Below are positions 37,734 to 44,764 of a stretch of DNA of 64,000 nucleotides, in pieces. A model generated the notes under the pieces. It was given only the letters and a program-made list of their open reading frames with translations. It ran no database searches and was not told the DNA's origin. Position 1 is the stretch's first letter; each line of letters starts with the position of its first letter. The stretch covers positions 186,001 to 250,000 of the forward strand of contig JAJZVX010000003.1 of NCBI GenBank assembly GCA_021846985.1. Direction: 5' to 3'. A program made the position numbers and the translations under genes. This stretch comes from Acidobacteriota bacterium. Lineage in GTDB: Bacteria; Acidobacteriota; Terriglobia; Terriglobales; Acidobacteriaceae.

Positions 37734-38582
37734 TCAGGTCGCACCCGCCGCTGCACCGTTCACGCGCGCCAGGGGCTGGTTTCTGTCGGAGCGCAGGGTG
37801 GGCACGGCGGCCAGCAGACTCTTTGTATAAACGTGTTCCGGGTGGGTCAGCAACTGCTGACTCGCACCCGTCTCCAGAATCTCTCCTCTGCGCATCACGG
37901 CGACGCGGCTGGCCACTTTGCCCACCACGGCCAGATCATGGGAGATAAACAGCATGGCCAGCCCGTGCTGGCGCTGCAAATCCCGCAGCAACTCCAGCAC
38001 CTGCGCCTGCACGGTCACGTCCAGCGCCGTTGTCGGTTCGTCGGCAATGAGCAGGCGGGGCCGGTTGATGAGCGCCATGGCGATAAGAATTCTCTGCCTC
38101 TGGCCGCCGGAGAACTGGTGCGGATAATCGCCGTAGCGCCGCGCCGCATCCGGAATAGCCACCGCTTCGAGCGCGGCAATGGCTTTGCGCTTCGCCTCGC
38201 GGCGCGTCCAGCCGGATGCGTGCGCCTCGGCGCACTCCGCCACCTGCCGCCCAATGGTCATGACTGGATTCAGGGCCGTCATGGGCTCCTGGAAGATCAT
38301 GGTCATTTCGCGTCCGCGCAGCCTGCGAAGGGCGCTGGCCGGCTGTTTGAGCAGGTCTACGCGGGCGCCGTTTGCGCCGGAGCGCCACAGAATCTCTCCG
38401 CCAGTTTGGGCCGTTGGTCCCAGCAGACCCAGAACCGCAAGAGCGGTCACGCTTTTGCCCGAGCCCGACTCGCCCACCAGCCCCAGCACCTCGCCTTCTT
38501 CCAGGCGGAGGCTGATGCCACGCACCGCTTCGATGATTCCAAAGCACACGCGGAGGTTGCGAATCTCGATCAGCGAAGACAT
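37734..38582 (-). CDS. ABC transporter ATP-binding protein, OppD/DppD type (orphan)
   Basis: A 282-residue ATPase of the oligopeptide/nickel importer class: Walker A GESGSGKSVTAL near residue 37, Q-loop FQEPMTALNPVMTIGRQ, signature FSGGQRQRILIAMAL, Walker B LLIADEPTTALD and HDLAVV. The C-terminal oligopeptide (oligo_HPY) extension is short, ending AAVPTLRSDRNQPL. A partner OppF, permeases or binding protein are not adjacent, so it must work with subunits encoded elsewhere, or be a relic. TAGGAT six bases before the ATG suggests leaderless transcription. Confidence 0.88.
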   Translation of the reverse strand: MSSLIEIRNLRVCFGIIEAVRGISLRLEEGEVLGLVGESGSGKSVTALAVLGLLGPTAQTGGEILWRSGANGARVDLLKQPASALRRLRGREMTMIFQEPMTALNPVMTIGRQVAECAEAHASGWTRREAKRKAIAALEAVAIPDAARRYGDYPHQFSGGQRQRILIAMALINRPRLLIADEPTTALDVTVQAQVLELLRDLQRQHGLAMLFISHDLAVVGKVASRVAVMRRGEILETGASQQLLTHPEHVYTKSLLAAVPTLRSDRNQPLARVNGAAAGAT

Positions 38583-38588
38583 GCACCC

Positions 38589-38594
38589 ATCCTA
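38589..38594 (-). promoter_or_regulatory. -10 box of the ABC ATPase gene (TAGGAT)
   Basis: On the minus strand TAGGAT is followed by six bases (GGGTGC) and the ATG at 38582. Confidence 0.5.
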
Positions 38595-38846
38595 GAGCAT
38601 CGGCATGGACGCGCCAGCATGTCCGCGCTGGCCGTGGAGGGACTCGGAATGTACCGCCTGGACATTTATTTGCTACTCTCGACACAGAAATCCGCGATCC
38701 GGAGATTTCCCGGCTGAACCAGAAAGAATCGGGCGGCAAAGGAGAGGCAAGACCTGACGCGGCGTTCCTCAGAGGCTTTGACAGGCGAGCTTACCGACCG
38801 CAACCGGGCAGCCCGTCTCGGGCCGGACGAGGAGAAAGAAGAGACC

Positions 38847-40751
38847 GTGACGCGAGGCGAGTGGGTGATCGGCGCCGATCTTGGCGGCACCAAGATCGAA
38901 ATAGGGCTCATCAGCCCGGAGAACGCGATTGCCGCGCGTGTACGCATGGCCACCAACCCAGGTCTCGGGCCACAAAACGTGGTGGACCGTATCGCGCTCG
39001 AGGTGGAGAAGCTTGCGGCCCATTTGCCGCCGGGCGAGCGGATTGCGGCTCTGGGGCTGTGCAGCCCAGGGCCTGTCGATTACGAGACAGGGACACTGCT
39101 CGATCCGCCGAATCTGGCCGGGCTGCACTACTCGCCGTTGCAGAGGCTGCTCTCGGCGCGGCTGGGCATTCCGGTGCGCATTGACCACGACGCCAAGGCA
39201 GCCTGTCTGGGCGAATACCATTTTGGGGCGGGCCGGGGCGAGCGGAGCGTGACTTATGTGATTGCCGGAACAGGCGTGGGGTCGGCTACGGTGCTGCATG
39301 GCAAACTGCTCCGTGGGTTGCACAACACGGCAGGCGAGATTGGCCACTCGCCGATCGACCGCAACGGGGAGATCTGCTCCTGCGGCTCGCGGGGATGCTT
39401 TGAGACGTTCATCGGGGGCCCCTGGCTGGCGCGGCGCTACCGGAAGAAGAAACAGGAGACCAACGGGAGCGCAGAGTTGACGGCACTGGATGTTGTCAAC
39501 TCTGCATTGGCCGGAGACGAAGCGGCGCGCGAGGTGATGGACGAGGCGGGCCGGGCTCTGGGCGCGGCCGTGGCTACGCTGGCCATGGTGCTCGATGTGG
39601 ATCTGTTTGTGATTGGCGGCAGCATCTTCAAGGCTGGTGATCTTCTGTTAGAGCCGGCGCGGCGCGCCATGCCTTCGCACTGCTACCGCTCCGTGGGCTG
39701 CGGCGTGCGCATTGTGGCCACCGAACTGGGCGACGACGGTCACATTCTGGGTTGTGCGTGGATGGCTCGCGAGGCGCTGGCCGAGGAACGGAGCAGAGAC
39801 ATGGCAGCGGACACGACCGGGAAAGCCGGGTCCGGCTTGTCCGCGCAAACACGGCCCGAACAAGTTGAGGGCGTTCTCTTCAATGTGCAGCGCTTCTCCG
39901 TCCACGACGGGCCAGGGATACGAACCAACGTTTTTGTGAAGGGCTGCCCGTTGCGCTGCGCGTGGTGCTGCAATCCGGAATCGCAGCGCTTTCAGCCGGA
40001 GCTGGTCCTCTCCGCGCCGCAGTGCGTGCGGTGCGGCCAGTTTGAAGATTTTTGCCCGGATATCTGGACGCACGGCGCGGTGACGCAGGCAGAGAAGGAA
40101 AAGTTTGGCATGCGCGCGGAGGCCTGCCCGGCGGGCGCGCTGCGCTGGATGGGCGTTCGCCGCACCGCGGGCGATGTGATCGGCGAGGTGCTGCGCGACC
40201 AGCCTTTTTATGCCGATGGCGGCGGACTGACTCTGACCGGCGGCGAACCGACCGCGCAACCCGATTTTGCCGAGGCCCTGCTGCGGCTGGCCAAGGAGGC
40301 GAGCCTGACGACGGCGATGGAAACCTGCGGCCACACGCGCTGGAAAGTCTTCGAGCGCCTGCTTCCGTATCTCGACCTGGTGCTTTTTGACCTGAAGCAT
40401 CTGGATCCGGAGACGCATCGCCGCGCGACGGGAGTGGATAACGAAGTGATCCTCGCCAATCTGCGCCGCCTGGCGGAGGTGGGCGCGCCGGTGCAGGTAC
40501 GCATCCCGCTGATTCCCGGCGTGAATGCGGACGTTGAAAGCATTGGCGCGCTGGCGCGCTTTGTCGCGGGGCTCGAGGGTTTGCCGAAACAGATAAGCCT
40601 GCTGCCTTATCACACGCTGGGGATGGGCAAGTACGCTTCATTGGGGCGGCCAAACCCGCTGAACGGACGCGCCTCCATCAGCCAGGAACAACTGCGGGAA
40701 TTCAGACGGATCGTGGAAGCACACGCTCTGCAAGTATCGGTAGGCAGCTAA
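38847..40751 (+). CDS. fusion: ROK-family sugar kinase + glycyl-radical-enzyme activase (radical SAM)
   Basis: One uninterrupted frame of 634 codons. Residues ~1-317 are a complete ROK kinase: ATP motif GADLGGTKIEIGL, catalytic Asp in DHDAKAACLGEY, GTGVGSATV, and the zinc motif GEIGHSPIDRNGEICSCGSRGC. Residues ~340-634 are a glycyl-radical activase: FSVHDGPGIRTNVFVKGCPLRCAWC (radical SAM CxxxCxxC from residue 367), one auxiliary cluster CVRCGQFEDFC...EACPAG, and LTLTGGEPTAQ. It should phosphorylate a sugar and install a radical on the downstream enzyme. GTG at 38847 is the probable start, given AGGAG upstream and the early kinase motif. An in-frame ATG at 39801 with GGAG seven bases before it could give the activase alone. 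The stop overlaps the next ATG by one base. Confidence 0.85.
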   Translation: MTRGEWVIGADLGGTKIEIGLISPENAIAARVRMATNPGLGPQNVVDRIALEVEKLAAHLPPGERIAALGLCSPGPVDYETGTLLDPPNLAGLHYSPLQRLLSARLGIPVRIDHDAKAACLGEYHFGAGRGERSVTYVIAGTGVGSATVLHGKLLRGLHNTAGEIGHSPIDRNGEICSCGSRGCFETFIGGPWLARRYRKKKQETNGSAELTALDVVNSALAGDEAAREVMDEAGRALGAAVATLAMVLDVDLFVIGGSIFKAGDLLLEPARRAMPSHCYRSVGCGVRIVATELGDDGHILGCAWMAREALAEERSRDMAADTTGKAGSGLSAQTRPEQVEGVLFNVQRFSVHDGPGIRTNVFVKGCPLRCAWCCNPESQRFQPELVLSAPQCVRCGQFEDFCPDIWTHGAVTQAEKEKFGMRAEACPAGALRWMGVRRTAGDVIGEVLRDQPFYADGGGLTLTGGEPTAQPDFAEALLRLAKEASLTTAMETCGHTRWKVFERLLPYLDLVLFDLKHLDPETHRRATGVDNEVILANLRRLAEVGAPVQVRIPLIPGVNADVESIGALARFVAGLEGLPKQISLLPYHTLGMGKYASLGRPNPLNGRASISQEQLREFRRIVEAHALQVSVGS

Positions 40752-43162
40752 TGAACAGCACTCTCTTCGATTTCAAGTCGCACCCGGCTTCGGTTTTTCC
40801 GCCTGAAGAGTGGAAATCTGCGCGCTCATCAGAGCGGGCACAGCGCATCCGGCATCGCCTGCTGGATAACCAGCGGGAAATCGACATGGTTCGCGCGCGG
40901 CTGACGACGGAGTCGTATCGGCAGACGGAAGGCGAGCCGATGGCAGTGCGGCGGGCCAAGATGCTGTTGCATCTGGCGCGTTTTTCGCCCATCGCCATCC
41001 ACCCGGACGAAATGATCGTGGGCAACCGCACGCTGCTGCCGCGCATGGGCGTGATTGCGCCGGAAGGCGCGGTGGACTGGATCGACCGCGAGCTGGATAC
41101 GCTGTCTATGCGGCCGCAGGATCCCTTCCACATCACCGCGGAGCAAATTCGCGAACTGCGTGAGGAGATTTTTCCGTACTGGCGCGGCAAGACGCTGGAA
41201 GACACGGTGGAGGCGCGGCTGAGCGAAGAGATCAAGACCGCCGTGCGCGGCAAGGCCTTCAGCCTGAACCAGACCGACCACGCACAGGGGCACATTCTGC
41301 CCGACATTCCGGCGTGGCTGAGCCTCGGCGTGCGCGGGATCCGCGAAGAAGCCATCGCCGCGCGGCGGCAGAATCCGCACAGCGATGTTTTCTATGATGC
41401 CGCGCTGATTGCGCTCGATGCCGCAGCGGAGTTCATGACGCGCTATGCCCGCCTGGCCGACGAGCAGTTGCAAGCGGAGCCCGACGTCGCGCGCCGCCGC
41501 GAACTGGGCGAGATCGCGAGCGCTTGCGAATGGCTGGCCGGGCATCCCGCACGCAACTTCCGCGAGGCTCTGCAAGCCACATGGTTCCTGCTGGTTCTGC
41601 TGCAGATGGAATCGAACGCGAGCAGCTTTTCACTGGGGCGCTTTGACCAGTACATGCTGCCTTACGTGGAGCGCGATCTTGAAACCGGCGCGCTGACGCT
41701 CGGCGCTGCGCAGGAGTTGCTTGAGTACTTCTGGCTGAAGTGCAACGAGATTGTGCTGCTGCGGAGCAGTACGAGCGCACGCTACTTTGCCGGCTTTCCC
41801 ATCGGCTTCAACATCACCACGGGCGGCCAGCTTGCGGACGGCGGCGACGCGACCAACGCCATGAGCTTCATGTGCCTGAGGGCGCAGGCAGCCTTGGGCA
41901 TGACGCAGCCGAATCTCTCCATCCGCATCCATAGGAACAGCCCCCAGGACTTTCTTGAGACAGCCGCATTCGTCATCAGCCGCGGCAGCGGCATGCCGCA
42001 GGTTTTCAACGATGAGGTGATCGTCCCCGGCCAGATGGCGCGAGGCATTGTGCCGGAAGATGCCGTGAATTACGCGGTGGTGGGCTGCGTGGAGCTTTCC
42101 ACGCCGGGCAAAGCGCTGGGGTGGAGCGATGCCGCCATGTTCAACCTGGTGCGGGTTCTGGAACTGACACTGTTTGGCGGGGCCGATCCGCAGAGCGGCG
42201 CGCAGATCGGCCTGGCGCATGCGCCTCTGGGGGGGATGACCAGCTTCGACGTGCTGCAGTCGAGCTACGACGCGCAGATGCAGCACTTCGTCCGGCTGAT
42301 GATCGACGGTTGCGCCGTGGTGGAGCGCACCCATGCCGAGGTGCTGCCCTCACCGTTTTTGTCGCTGGTGGTGGAGGACTGCGTGGCGCGCGGGCTGGAT
42401 GTGACGGCCGGCGGGGCGCACTACAACTTCTCCGGCGTGCAGGGCGTGCAGGTGGCCAACGTGGCTGACAGCCTTGCGGCCGTGGAACACGCCGTCTTTG
42501 GCGAACACTGGATCGGCGGCGAGGAACTGCTCGAGGTTCTGCGCGCCAACTTCGCGGGCTACGAACTGCTGCGCCAGCGGCTGCTGAACGGCATCCCCAA
42601 GTATGGCAACGACGATGACCGCGTGGATCGCTTCGCACAGCAATGGGCGGACCGCTACAGCGAGCTTGTAGGCAGCTACCCCACGCCGCGCGGCGGAACG
42701 TTTCAGCCCGGCTTCTACACGGTTTCAGCGCATGTGCCCATGGGCGCGAATGTGGGCGCGACGCCTGACGGGCGCCGCCGCGGCGAACCGCTGGCCGATG
42801 GCGGCCTTTCGCCCAGCGCGGGCCGCGACCTGAAGGGACCGACCGCAGTGCTGAACTCGGTGAGCAAGGCGAACCTGGCGCTGGCCTCGAACGGAACACT
42901 GCTGAACATGAAGTTTCTGCCCTCGTTCTTCGATGGTGACGAGGCGCTGGCTAAGTTTGTAACGCTGCTGCGCGGCTTCAGCCGGCTGCGCATTCCCCAT
43001 GTGCAGTTCAATGTCGTGTCCGCGCAGACGCTGCGCGCGGCGCAGGACAACCCGGCGAGCTATCGCGGCCTGGTGGTGCGCGTGGCCGGCTACAGCGCGT
43101 ACTTTGTGGAGCTTGATCGCAACTTGCAGGACGAGATCATTCGCAGAACGGAATTTGCATAG
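40751..43162 (+). CDS. glycyl radical enzyme of the PFL/dehydratase family, substrate unassigned
   Basis: An 803-residue glycyl radical enzyme. The radical site is RVAGYSAYF, Gly780, 24 residues from the end; the thiyl Cys446 and the Glu448 typical of dehydratase/lyase members lie in YAVVGCVELSTPGKALGWSDA. Pyruvate formate-lyases have Cys-Cys here, so it is not a formate lyase. Glycerol, propanediol and hydroxyproline dehydratases usually read GCVEP then GWHDA; here Pro is Leu and the His is Ser, so the substrate pocket differs. No shell protein or aldehyde dehydrogenase is nearby, so it is not part of a microcompartment locus. It is translationally coupled to the kinase-activase fusion, which points to a sugar-related or polyol substrate under anoxic conditions. 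Confidence 0.88.
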   Translation: MNSTLFDFKSHPASVFPPEEWKSARSSERAQRIRHRLLDNQREIDMVRARLTTESYRQTEGEPMAVRRAKMLLHLARFSPIAIHPDEMIVGNRTLLPRMGVIAPEGAVDWIDRELDTLSMRPQDPFHITAEQIRELREEIFPYWRGKTLEDTVEARLSEEIKTAVRGKAFSLNQTDHAQGHILPDIPAWLSLGVRGIREEAIAARRQNPHSDVFYDAALIALDAAAEFMTRYARLADEQLQAEPDVARRRELGEIASACEWLAGHPARNFREALQATWFLLVLLQMESNASSFSLGRFDQYMLPYVERDLETGALTLGAAQELLEYFWLKCNEIVLLRSSTSARYFAGFPIGFNITTGGQLADGGDATNAMSFMCLRAQAALGMTQPNLSIRIHRNSPQDFLETAAFVISRGSGMPQVFNDEVIVPGQMARGIVPEDAVNYAVVGCVELSTPGKALGWSDAAMFNLVRVLELTLFGGADPQSGAQIGLAHAPLGGMTSFDVLQSSYDAQMQHFVRLMIDGCAVVERTHAEVLPSPFLSLVVEDCVARGLDVTAGGAHYNFSGVQGVQVANVADSLAAVEHAVFGEHWIGGEELLEVLRANFAGYELLRQRLLNGIPKYGNDDDRVDRFAQQWADRYSELVGSYPTPRGGTFQPGFYTVSAHVPMGANVGATPDGRRRGEPLADGGLSPSAGRDLKGPTAVLNSVSKANLALASNGTLLNMKFLPSFFDGDEALAKFVTLLRGFSRLRIPHVQFNVVSAQTLRAAQDNPASYRGLVVRVAGYSAYFVELDRNLQDEIIRRTEFA

Positions 43163-43199
43163 ACATCTCCGCCGCCGGGAAGCGGCGGAGGAGATGTCT
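43161..43199. terminator. strong hairpin between convergent GRE and htrA genes
   Basis: AGACATC and GATGTCT form the base, TCCGCCGC and GCGGCGGA the upper stem, with a three-base bulge and a six-base loop. It starts at the TAG stop of the glycyl radical enzyme gene. There is no T-run on either strand; it may serve both directions. Confidence 0.6.
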
Positions 43200-43246
43200 G
43201 GAGTGAAGGGCCGCCTCGCGGGCAAGACGGCCCCGGCTGATTGACA

Positions 43247-44764
43247 CTAGCCGTTCTGGTTGTTCAGACCGGGCCGGAGGGTCCGGTAGCTGGCGTTGCC
43301 TTTGGACCAGACGAGCATCAGCAGGTCCTGTCCGCTCTTGTTCTGGCGCACCGCGCTCGCGAACTGGCTGGCAGATTCCACTTGCCTGCGGTTGAGTTCA
43401 ACGATGACATCTCCAGGCTGGATTCCGGCTTCGTCGGCGGGGCTGGCGGGGCGCACATTCTGCACTACGACGCCGTGTAAATGATCGGGGATGTTGTCCT
43501 GCTGGCGCGCCTGGGGCGTCAGATTGCTGACCGCGAGGCCCAGTTTGCCTCCCTCTGCATTGTCGCCGTTGTCGCTGCTGGCCACTTCATTCCCGCCGTG
43601 GTAGCTGCCCACGGTCAGGTCGAACGTCTCCGGCTTGCCGTTCCGCACAATCTCGAGTGAGGCCTTGGTTCCAGGCGCCATTTCGCTCACGGCTACCTGC
43701 AGGTCGTTTCCACTGGAAACCTGCTGGCCGTTGATGCCGGTGATCACGTCACCAGTGAGCAGGCCGGCCCGGCTGGCCGGCGAGTCCGGCGTAACCTGGG
43801 CCACGATGGCGCCAGAGGCGTTCTGCAGGTCGAAGAAATGCGCGTTGGCGGGAGTGACGTCGTTGATGCTGATGCCAAGGTAGCCATGCTCGACCTTGCC
43901 GTGTTGGATGATCTGGTCCGCGCTGGCCTTGACGATCTGCGAGGGGATGGCAAAGCCGGCCCCGGCAAAGGATCCGCCGCTGGAGATGATGAAGGTGTTG
44001 ATGCCCACCAGTTCGCCCCGCGCGTCAACGAGCGGACCGCCGGAATTGCCGGGGTTGATGGCGGCGTCGGTCTGGATGTAGTTGCCCGGCTTGCGCGGAT
44101 CGTCGGAGTAGGGATTGCGGCGATGGACGGCACTGACGATGCCGCGCGTCACGGAGAACTGAAAGTAGCCAAACGGACTTCCAAAAGCGAGTACGGTTTG
44201 GCCGGGCTCGAGCCGGGTGGAGTCGCCCCAGGCGACGGTGGGAAGATTCTTCGCGTCCACCTTGAGAACGGCAAGATCGTTGAGCGTATCCACGCCAACT
44301 ACCTTCGCGTTCAGAATGCGGCGGTCATGCAGTGTGACCTTGATGTCGGTGGCGCCATTCACCACGTGATTGTTGGTCACGATGTAGCCATCAGGCGAGA
44401 TGATGATCCCGCTTCCCACCCCGTGCTCATACTCGGGTTGCTGGGGCTGCTGGAACATGGGACCGAAAAACTGCTGAAAGCCAGGCGGCAGGTTCTGCAT
44501 CTGGTTGCCGGTGGGCACGTCGCTGGTGACTTTGGAAGTGACCGAGACGTTGACAACGGCCGGAGTCACGCGCGCCGCGACCGTTTCCATGGCGTGGTCG
44601 AGTGCGGTAAGGGCGGAAACGCTGTTGTCGCTCAGGGGCGAAGCGGCGTTGACGGTGCCGTGCCCAACAAAGAGCGAAGCTCCGAGAACAAAAGCGCCGG
44701 CAACAGCCGCCGGGACAGAGAACCTGCTGACGGTTGATACTAATTTCTTAGTTGATTGAAGCAT
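43247..44764 (-). CDS. DegP/HtrA-type periplasmic serine protease with two PDZ domains
   Basis: A 505-residue Do-family protease/chaperone for misfolded envelope proteins. It has an N-terminal export signal/anchor (FSVPAAVAGAFVLGASLFVG), the trypsin-like domain with His in NNHVVNG near residue 134, Asp in LNDLAVLKVD near residue 163 and Ser in NPGNSGGPLVD near residue 240, and two PDZ domains (about 290-385 and 405-495, PASPADEAGIQPGDVIVELN). AGGAGGT nine bases before the ATG is an excellent ribosome site. It lies 29 bases downstream of blaR1, and its codons 5-9 contain an inverted repeat almost identical to that upstream of blaI. Confidence 0.93.
   Translation of the reverse strand: MLQSTKKLVSTVSRFSVPAAVAGAFVLGASLFVGHGTVNAASPLSDNSVSALTALDHAMETVAARVTPAVVNVSVTSKVTSDVPTGNQMQNLPPGFQQFFGPMFQQPQQPEYEHGVGSGIIISPDGYIVTNNHVVNGATDIKVTLHDRRILNAKVVGVDTLNDLAVLKVDAKNLPTVAWGDSTRLEPGQTVLAFGSPFGYFQFSVTRGIVSAVHRRNPYSDDPRKPGNYIQTDAAINPGNSGGPLVDARGELVGINTFIISSGGSFAGAGFAIPSQIVKASADQIIQHGKVEHGYLGISINDVTPANAHFFDLQNASGAIVAQVTPDSPASRAGLLTGDVITGINGQQVSSGNDLQVAVSEMAPGTKASLEIVRNGKPETFDLTVGSYHGGNEVASSDNGDNAEGGKLGLAVSNLTPQARQQDNIPDHLHGVVVQNVRPASPADEAGIQPGDVIVELNRRQVESASQFASAVRQNKSGQDLLMLVWSKGNASYRTLRPGLNNQNG
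44739..44752. promoter_or_regulatory. candidate BlaI operator inside the start of htrA
   Basis: On the minus strand ACTAAGAAATTAGT, a perfect ACTAA-N4-TTAGT inverted repeat, beginning twelve bases after the A of the htrA start codon. It matches the repeat upstream of blaI at 13 of 14 positions, so the same repressor probably binds both. Confidence 0.65.

Follow-up and report, generated by a model that had tools for sequence, protein, structure and literature searches.

What could bring a sugar kinase and the activator of a radical enzyme onto one polypeptide is the question raised by a locus in the 64,000-nucleotide stretch analyzed here (the window; positions 186,001 to 250,000 of contig JAJZVX010000003.1, assembly GCA_021846985.1, from an Acidobacteriota bacterium). 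A single open frame of 634 codons carries a complete ROK kinase followed by a complete radical-SAM glycyl-radical activase, and its stop codon shares one base (40751, in the TAATG of 40749-40753) with the ATG of a glycyl radical enzyme (GRE) gene (Table 1). The frame, the Pfam and NCBIfam domains and the motifs bear out this arrangement, which had been proposed in a sequence-only reading made by a model from the letters of the window. That reading knew of no described ROK-activase fusion, in agreement with our search of the literature, in which no such fusion appeared among the open-licence PMC papers listed. Pfam analysis of a longer, 657-residue form of the protein reports ROK at residues 31-332 and Radical_SAM at residues 385-585 (E 2e-20), and NCBIfam assigns residues 368-648 of the same form to the glycyl-radical activating proteins (TIGR02494, cut-off 174.35 bits). 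This longer form begins at an alternative in-frame TTG (38778), from which 657 codons are open to 40751. The GTG at 38847 is the likelier start, because an AGGAG lies at 38830-38834 and the first residues that follow can be aligned with relatives. The AlphaFold2 (AF2) model of the fusion (mean predicted local distance difference test score (pLDDT) 90.0, predicted template modelling score 0.57) comprises two confident domains whose mutual placement is not predicted, and the linker is its sole stretch of at least three residues with pLDDT below 50.

Most loci compared come from metagenome-assembled genomes (MAGs). Relatives with standalone genes exist, which brings to mind an assembly or sequencing error that united two genes, or a decayed remnant. 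Such an origin is hardly credible. Among 60 genomes searched, the window's own (G000) included, there is one other full-length match to the fusion, in a Terracidiphilus sp. MAG of the same genus (G021, locus L027), 72% identical over residues 14-657 and without internal stop. Nei-Gojobori style counts between the window and L027 give dN/dS ratios of 0.17 for the ROK half, 0.13 for the activase half and 0.15 for the GRE (dS 0.93-1.3), so that both halves of the fusion are under purifying selection. Together with the intact motifs and with two Chloroflexota fusions of the same ROK type, these results all but exclude an error or a remnant.

Table 1. Coordinates in the window of the fusion gene, the GRE gene and their parts
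Feature	Position	Strand	Evidence and details
ROK kinase/GRE activase fusion gene	38847..40751	+	open frame, Pfam and NCBIfam domains, same fusion in G021/L027, AF2 model; GTG start, TAA 40749-40751
ROK sugar kinase domain	38868..39773	+	PF00480 E 1.4e-60; ROK tree
ROK motifs	39180-39197; 39333-39347; 39375-39398	+	I-D-H-D-A-K catalytic loop; GEIGH; zinc motif CSCGSRGC
Inter-domain flexible linker	39816..39848	+	residues 324-334 of the 634-residue form; AF2 pLDDT <50
Radical-SAM GRE activase domain	39879..40721	+	TIGR02494 321 bits; CPLRCAWC 39945-39968; fewer auxiliary-insert Cys
GRE, 803 residues, PflD-like	40751..43162	+	PF02901 E 2.8e-210; PF01228 E 2.6e-28; trees; AF2 pLDDT 90.5
PflD-clade signature NQTDHAQGHI	41267..41296	+	GRE residues 173-182
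PflD-clade signature ESNASSFSLGR	41609..41641	+	GRE residues 287-297

The downstream protein is a member of the GRE superfamily, with PFL-like and Gly_radical domains, the catalytic Cys446 (42086-42088) in a GCVE motif and the radical-bearing Gly780 (43088-43090) in RVAGYSAYF. A phmmer search against the PDB ranks E. coli PflD first (745 bits), followed by 8id0 (672 bits), the glycerol and diol dehydratases (646, 624 and 599 bits) and YbiW (498 bits). The entry 8id0 is entitled "PflD bound to 1,5-anhydromannitol-6-phosphate", and 8id7 "YbiW in complex with 1,5-anhydroglucitol-6-phosphate". Two loops, NQTDxxQGHI and ESNASS, which we take to line the active site, are carried by both solved PflDs, 8id0 included, and neither occurs in the glycerol and diol dehydratases (ESNASS is not in 1r8w). 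Both are present in all 16 rows of the window's clade and in the two PflD-type rows, and in none of the four YbiW-like rows, the 36 others or the single row of L040. In the next clade (19 rows), NQTDxxQGHI is found in 2, ESNASS in 17 and the looser NQxDxxQGHI in all 19. A quick tree of 57 of the 78 GREs, the other 21 having been omitted as redundant by eye, places the window's 16-row group (strong support, 100) within a 31-row group holding PflD (strong support, 99), in which the branch to PflD is marked as long. A more careful tree of 33 author-chosen rows (27 of the 78 GREs and six others, including a Rahnella GRE, CutC, and a Kosakonia GRE that is encoded beside pduB and is nearest to 1r8w) unites the window and PflD in one 16-row group, strongly supported at 100/99, apart from the YbiW-like and propanediol-dehydratase-type GREs and from CutC. 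As judged from its sequence, the window GRE thus belongs to the PflD-like clade, and clade and signature loops together point to a probable 1,5-anhydrohexitol-6-phosphate lyase. Its chemistry is probably not new, since it shares its clade with PflD, and a solved relative of PflD has 1,5-anhydromannitol-6-phosphate bound. The quick tree also drew YbiW as the sister of PflD, a position that was not upheld once propanediol-dehydratase-type GREs had joined the 33-row tree.

The kinase half scores 205.7 bits with PF00480, above the cut-off, and retains the ATP loop DLGGTK, the catalytic Asp and the zinc motif. Among solved ROKs it is closest to the glucokinases; it scores 180.6 bits with the ROK glucokinase model TIGR00744, under the cut-off of 260.35, and matches the Mlc and NagC models below their cut-offs. 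In a quick ROK tree, it falls in a strongly supported group (99) of 11 distinct ROKs, all from the loci compared here, separate from the other ROKs of its own genome. Of 44 distinct ROK frames compared, 13 have an HDAK catalytic loop, namely these 11 and the copies of L193 and L194, which lie outside the tree; the loop occurs in none of the other 31, one of which is gapped there. Two ROKs of this HDAK group, L029:6808-7842 and L034:6958-7983, lack the CxCGxxGC zinc motif. The activase half scores above the TIGR02494 cut-off and contains the CxxxCxxC motif as CPLRCAWC at residue 367. TIGR02494 activases usually possess an eight-Cys insert accommodating two clusters; the insert of the window activase is not of this form and has five Cys, one of them immediately after the radical-SAM motif. 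With the same search pattern, 4-5 insert Cys (39945-40238 in the window) are counted in 12 of 12 clade activases and 7-9 in 30 of 39 others, which suggests that the clade activases hold one auxiliary cluster. The activase and ROK trees both return strongly supported Chloroflexota/Acidobacteriota groups containing the window (98 and 99, respectively).

How widely these partners travel together was assessed with a contig scan for GREs that used six short peptides, missing distant relatives, and found 79 loci. Seventeen of them (L027-L039, L062, L077, L092 and L093) encode GREs 64-79% identical to that of the window and belong, by title, to Chloroflexota (14) and Acidobacteriota (2), L030 being unassigned. 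Within the fetched stretches, which are short contigs for L032, L039, L077 and L093, a ROK frame is present at 13 of the 17 loci and an activase at 11, the two being fused in L027, L037 and L062 with linkers whose sequences are unlike that of the window. In L033, ROK and activase adjoin in different frames, and the standalone activases of L029 and L030 start with a leader that resembles the post-linker sequence of L037 and L062. In L028 (1364-2314; genome G474), the activase frame retains ~10 residues of the ROK start, the kinase being lost in frame, and the activase and GRE frames are open; since this locus is a MAG, the loss could be an assembly join. A second HDAK ROK of G474 lies elsewhere (L194), beside Gfo/Idh-, dehydrogenase- and epimerase-like genes. 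Separately, 42 residues 79% identical to the C-terminus of the window GRE lie in a 50-residue frame of the same genome (G474:C8:4541-4666) and may represent either a relic or an extra radical domain.

The sequence-only reading was to be withdrawn if a stop separated the two domains and relatives had two genes, or if the GRE fell within a characterised clade: the stop is truly absent here, most relatives do have two genes, and the GRE does group with a characterised type, at 47.5% identity. The presence of the locus is patchy. Within the genus, any GRE match occurs in 8 of 80 genomes and the clade's GRE in 3 (G000, G021 and G474); within the phylum, 95 of 396 genomes, the window's own included, have a GRE match. 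Apart from the window's own, no full-length match exceeds 39% identity, and higher values occur on fragments only. At most two candidates per genome were scored in this phylum scan and at most three in a further genome scan, so that fusions and GREs are undercounted. This patchiness, with tree neighbours from Chloroflexota, suggests transfer of the locus from Chloroflexota-like donors. Base composition is uninformative as a signal of transfer, since the GC content of 0.64-0.65 over 38000-44000 is similar to that of the preceding stretch.

The fusion itself has occurred more than once. At L193 (genome G886, from the phylum of G465), a ROK with an NDAN-type loop is joined to an activase, whose insert contains eight Cys, directly upstream of a YbiW-like GRE, and a separate HDAK ROK and HbpS-like and GMC-like genes stand alongside. 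Because its ROK is of another type, the L193 fusion is separate from the HDAK-type fusions. In total, ROK-activase fusions are present in at least five genomes (G000, G021, G462, G465 and G886, three of them Chloroflexota) and involve two ROK types. Whether the HDAK-type fusions share one origin is not settled: a joint grouping of the window, L027, L028, L037 and L062 is not rejected (approximately unbiased test, p 0.211, with a tree of 23 of the 78 GREs), and L037 and L062 pair in that tree (81/97) and, with strong support, in the 33-row tree (100/99) and stand apart in the 57-row quick tree, the unfused L029 and L033 being closer to the window in the 33-row tree at 91/82, outside the strongly supported class. 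A 704-residue frame (G459:C5) that was considered as a further fusion is not counted, ROK and activase being two frames at L192. A strict match of ROK type to GRE type is no more than suggestive, as L032 (a 5.6-kb contig) combines another ROK type with a PflD-like GRE and L193 both ROK types with a YbiW-like GRE. In the Chloroflexota loci L035 (7950-12936) and L038 (3503-8484), PflD-like and YbiW-like GREs are encoded in tandem, with ROK and activase.

The E. coli enzymes offer a framework for these associations. There, fsaA lies beside ybiW-ybiY, and fsaB, gldA and the phosphotransferase system (PTS) genes frw beside pflD-pflC. Fructose-6-phosphate aldolase (FSA) reportedly cleaves 1-deoxyfructose-6-phosphate. 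In L027, the fusion is preceded by a regulator gene with the sugar-binding domain PF04198, and an FSA-like gene (234.5 bits, cut-off 245.95) is found 3' of the GRE gene; the best TIGR00875 score in the whole sister genome G021 is 235.4 bits. In L061, an FSA gene above the PRK12656 cut-off follows GRE and activase. The YbiW and PflD reactions, with PTS phosphorylation that supplies the 6-phosphate in E. coli, are stated in section 5.1 of a review (PMC12441222). The PTS component EIIC (PF02378) returned no match in G000, G021 and G474, in a search that was positive for 7 of 14 controls, including E. coli. Since the E. coli 6-phosphate is made by the PTS, EIIC was not found here and a ROK accompanies the GRE, the simplest reading is that a ROK kinase substitutes for the PTS.

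We therefore lean, with somewhat more confidence than doubt, towards an ATP-dependent 1,5-anhydrohexitol-6-phosphate route in which a kinase replaces the PTS and is fused to the activase; its substrate, product, order of reactions and reason for the fusion are what we infer. The ROK domain would phosphorylate at C6 a free 1,5-anhydrohexitol, most likely 1,5-anhydromannitol and next 1,5-anhydroglucitol. The activase domain, tethered by the flexible linker, would install the glycyl radical on Gly780 using S-adenosylmethionine and a 4Fe-4S cluster, upon which the GRE would open, via Cys446, the ring of the 6-phosphate to yield 1-deoxyfructose-6-phosphate. An FSA-type aldolase, adjacent in the sister genome and not found in that of the window, would then cut this product into glyceraldehyde-3-phosphate and hydroxyacetone. 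Fusion and gene overlap would co-produce kinase, activase and GRE. Without active GRE the phosphate ester would be a dead end, and its formation would in this way be limited to conditions under which it is usable. The sequence-only reading had left the order open between phosphorylating a sugar or polyol and then cleaving it, and the reverse; the former is the best-supported direction, given a GRE that groups with PflD and the ROK frames of the close loci, and the interpretation overall is partly supported. Nothing was found to link the locus to exported glycan breakdown, a connection also drawn there.

Several observations weigh against this route or leave room for others. The window GRE is 47.5% identical to PflD and 38% to YbiW, and PflD and YbiW, themselves 39% identical, have different substrates. 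The PflD equivalog PRK09983 gives 847.9 bits, below its cut-off of 1109, and the loop after Cys446 reads GWSD in the clade and GLHD in PflD, which calls for caution on the exact substrate. The fold does not separate the candidates (Z 49.3 for PflD, 49.1 for both CutC and glycerol dehydratase), and a substrate call from fold alone was rejected on account of this tie. In the 33-row tree, the propanediol-dehydratase-type rows group closer to the YbiW-like rows than PflD does, with weak support (85/79), and a sister relationship between the two anhydrohexitol enzymes is thus not established. L032, L035 and L038 encode ROKs of a different type, and PTS EIIC is found in 5 of 16 other genomes searched. 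It is thus possible, though rather unlikely, that the same logic serves another substrate, the ROK making and the GRE opening or dehydrating a different 6-phosphorylated polyol, cyclic or linear (anhydrogalactitol, deoxy sugar or sugar phosphate). The modest identity to PflD, the GWSD loop and the HDAK loop that marks off this ROK clade are compatible with such a change, as are the Chloroflexota cassettes, whose additional genes vary and encode an ABC sugar importer, a zinc-type dehydrogenase and oxidoreductases of the GMC and Gfo/Idh families, none of them present at the two E. coli loci; for the Gfo/Idh protein of L034, the highest score is that with levoglucosan dehydrogenase, at 290.8 bits against a cut-off of 650. 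However, both signature loops agree with the two solved PflDs, YbiW-like GREs stand in tandem in L035 and L038, and FSA genes lie beside L027 and L061.

Glycerol and propanediol dehydratases act on free diols. By phmmer they rank third to fifth, ahead of YbiW, and the ROK half is nearest to glucokinases, two points that would suit a GRE dehydrating an unphosphorylated polyol and a kinase acting on the product or on an unrelated sugar, the fusion coupling expression only. This is improbable, as the GRE groups with PflD apart from the propanediol-dehydratase-type GREs and lacks the glycerol dehydratase loops GVGHV and ESNGHS. More improbable again is a ROK domain that serves as a sugar sensor gating the activase, the GRE being switched on only with ligand and kinase activity being secondary or lost. 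ROK proteins do include repressors, to whose Mlc and NagC models the domain shows its matches under cut-off, and L028 is without most of the ROK domain, which implies that the latter is not needed for activation there. Nevertheless, the domain retains DLGGTK, the HDAK Asp and the zinc motif, the ROK half is constrained, Pfam matched no DNA-binding domain in the fusion, and several relatives keep a separate HDAK ROK, as G474 does elsewhere in its genome.

Further observations against the anhydrohexitol route concern the window's own genome. Neither an aldolase nor a regulator is seen flanking the fusion-GRE pair among the window's open frames. No FSA was found in G000, the best TIGR00875 score being 73.7 bits for a transaldolase-like 368-residue frame (controls positive in 10 of 14), and the L027 regulator has no match there in a search run without a positive control. 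Class III ribonucleotide reductase was not found in G000, G021 or G474, the latter two being 65% and 73% complete, with 6 of 14 controls positive; the lineage is thus not an evident strict anaerobe. With FSA, regulator and class III reductase not found in its genome, the copy in the window may supply a different aldolase, represent an incomplete import, or act in a sometimes-anoxic lineage.

The clade's cassettes in Chloroflexota differ in content from locus to locus. Beside the GRE they encode various combinations of an HbpS-like protein, a PF04198 regulator, an ABC sugar importer, a zinc-type dehydrogenase and oxidoreductases of the GMC and Gfo/Idh families; the SorC and MDR labels of cassette genes are presumptive, resting on Pfam domains, and the Dabb label rests on none. 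The L092 Gfo/Idh protein is nearest to 6a3f (248 bits) and more weakly related to the 1,5-anhydrofructose reductase 2glx (86 bits), and the L029 GMC protein is nearest to fructose and glucose dehydrogenases. A chain from anhydroglucitol through anhydrofructose and anhydromannitol to the 6-phosphate is possible. Matches to the cassette dehydrogenase and GMC reach 34% and 36% only in the window's genome, and 53% for the dehydrogenase in G474. Downstream of the YbiW-like GREs, L193 (2852-6297) and L038 (9646-11124) encode a thiamine pyrophosphate-dependent E1 of pyruvate/acetoin type, alpha and beta in one frame, accompanied by an E2 in L193. Because 1-deoxyfructose-6-phosphate is an acetoin analogue, its acyloin-type cleavage by this E1 is conceivable. 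A bolder and doubtful proposal would combine these elements into a PTS-independent, kinase-driven route for anhydrohexitols that is shared by Chloroflexota and Acidobacteriota. Fusion would have arisen in it repeatedly as a safety coupling, and some Chloroflexota (L038, L193) might cut 1-deoxyfructose-6-phosphate by E1, with E2 in L193, into acetyl-CoA and erythrose-4-phosphate; the FSA missing from the window's genome could find its explanation in a comparable route without FSA.

Set beside known systems, the locus resembles the E. coli PflD/YbiW anhydrohexitol route in its clade and signature loops, in an activase gene beside the GRE gene, in the FSA gene beside the pair in L027 and in the predicted ring opening; it differs in using a ROK and ATP for the PTS, in uniting kinase and activase in one polypeptide and in the distance of its GRE from both E. 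coli enzymes, and neither the FSA nor the PTS EIIC of an E. coli-type pathway was found in the window's genome. With the ROK glucokinases (PF00480; TIGR00744; 2qm1, 3vgk), it shares the family, DLGGTK, the catalytic Asp, GEIGH and CxCGxxGC, whereas it has HDAK where most other ROK frames compared have NDAN or similar, as well as a C-terminal activase domain. Its activase shows the CxxxCxxC and GGEP motifs and the location beside a GRE gene that are typical of GRE activating proteins (TIGR02494; PflC, YbiY), but is fused behind a kinase and has fewer auxiliary-insert Cys. The B12-independent glycerol and propanediol dehydratases and CutC have the same fold (Z 48-49) and catalytic Cys and Gly, but other active-site loops, and stand on the opposite side of the 100/99 branch. 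The locus would widen the range of the anhydrohexitol route beyond gut bacteria to include Acidobacteriota and Chloroflexota, offer a possible entry to it for bacteria without a PTS of the E. coli type, and define the HDAK ROKs as a kinase set with a testable substrate. The kinase-activase fusion, with a second one that joins other kinase and GRE types, is direct evidence that phosphorylation and the radical enzyme belong to a single pathway. Should its substrate be confirmed, the fusion protein would be a compact tool for 1,5-anhydrosugar conversion.

Around the locus, a promoter scan found no promoter, 0.6 being expected by chance. The two neighbours checked in the window encode an ABC-transporter ATPase, on the opposite strand, and a DegP-type protease. 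Divergent genes of the ribulose-phosphate 3-epimerase family are found near the cassettes at L192:5242-6069 and L194:5393-6184 (66 and 74 bits, respectively; cut-off 212.6).

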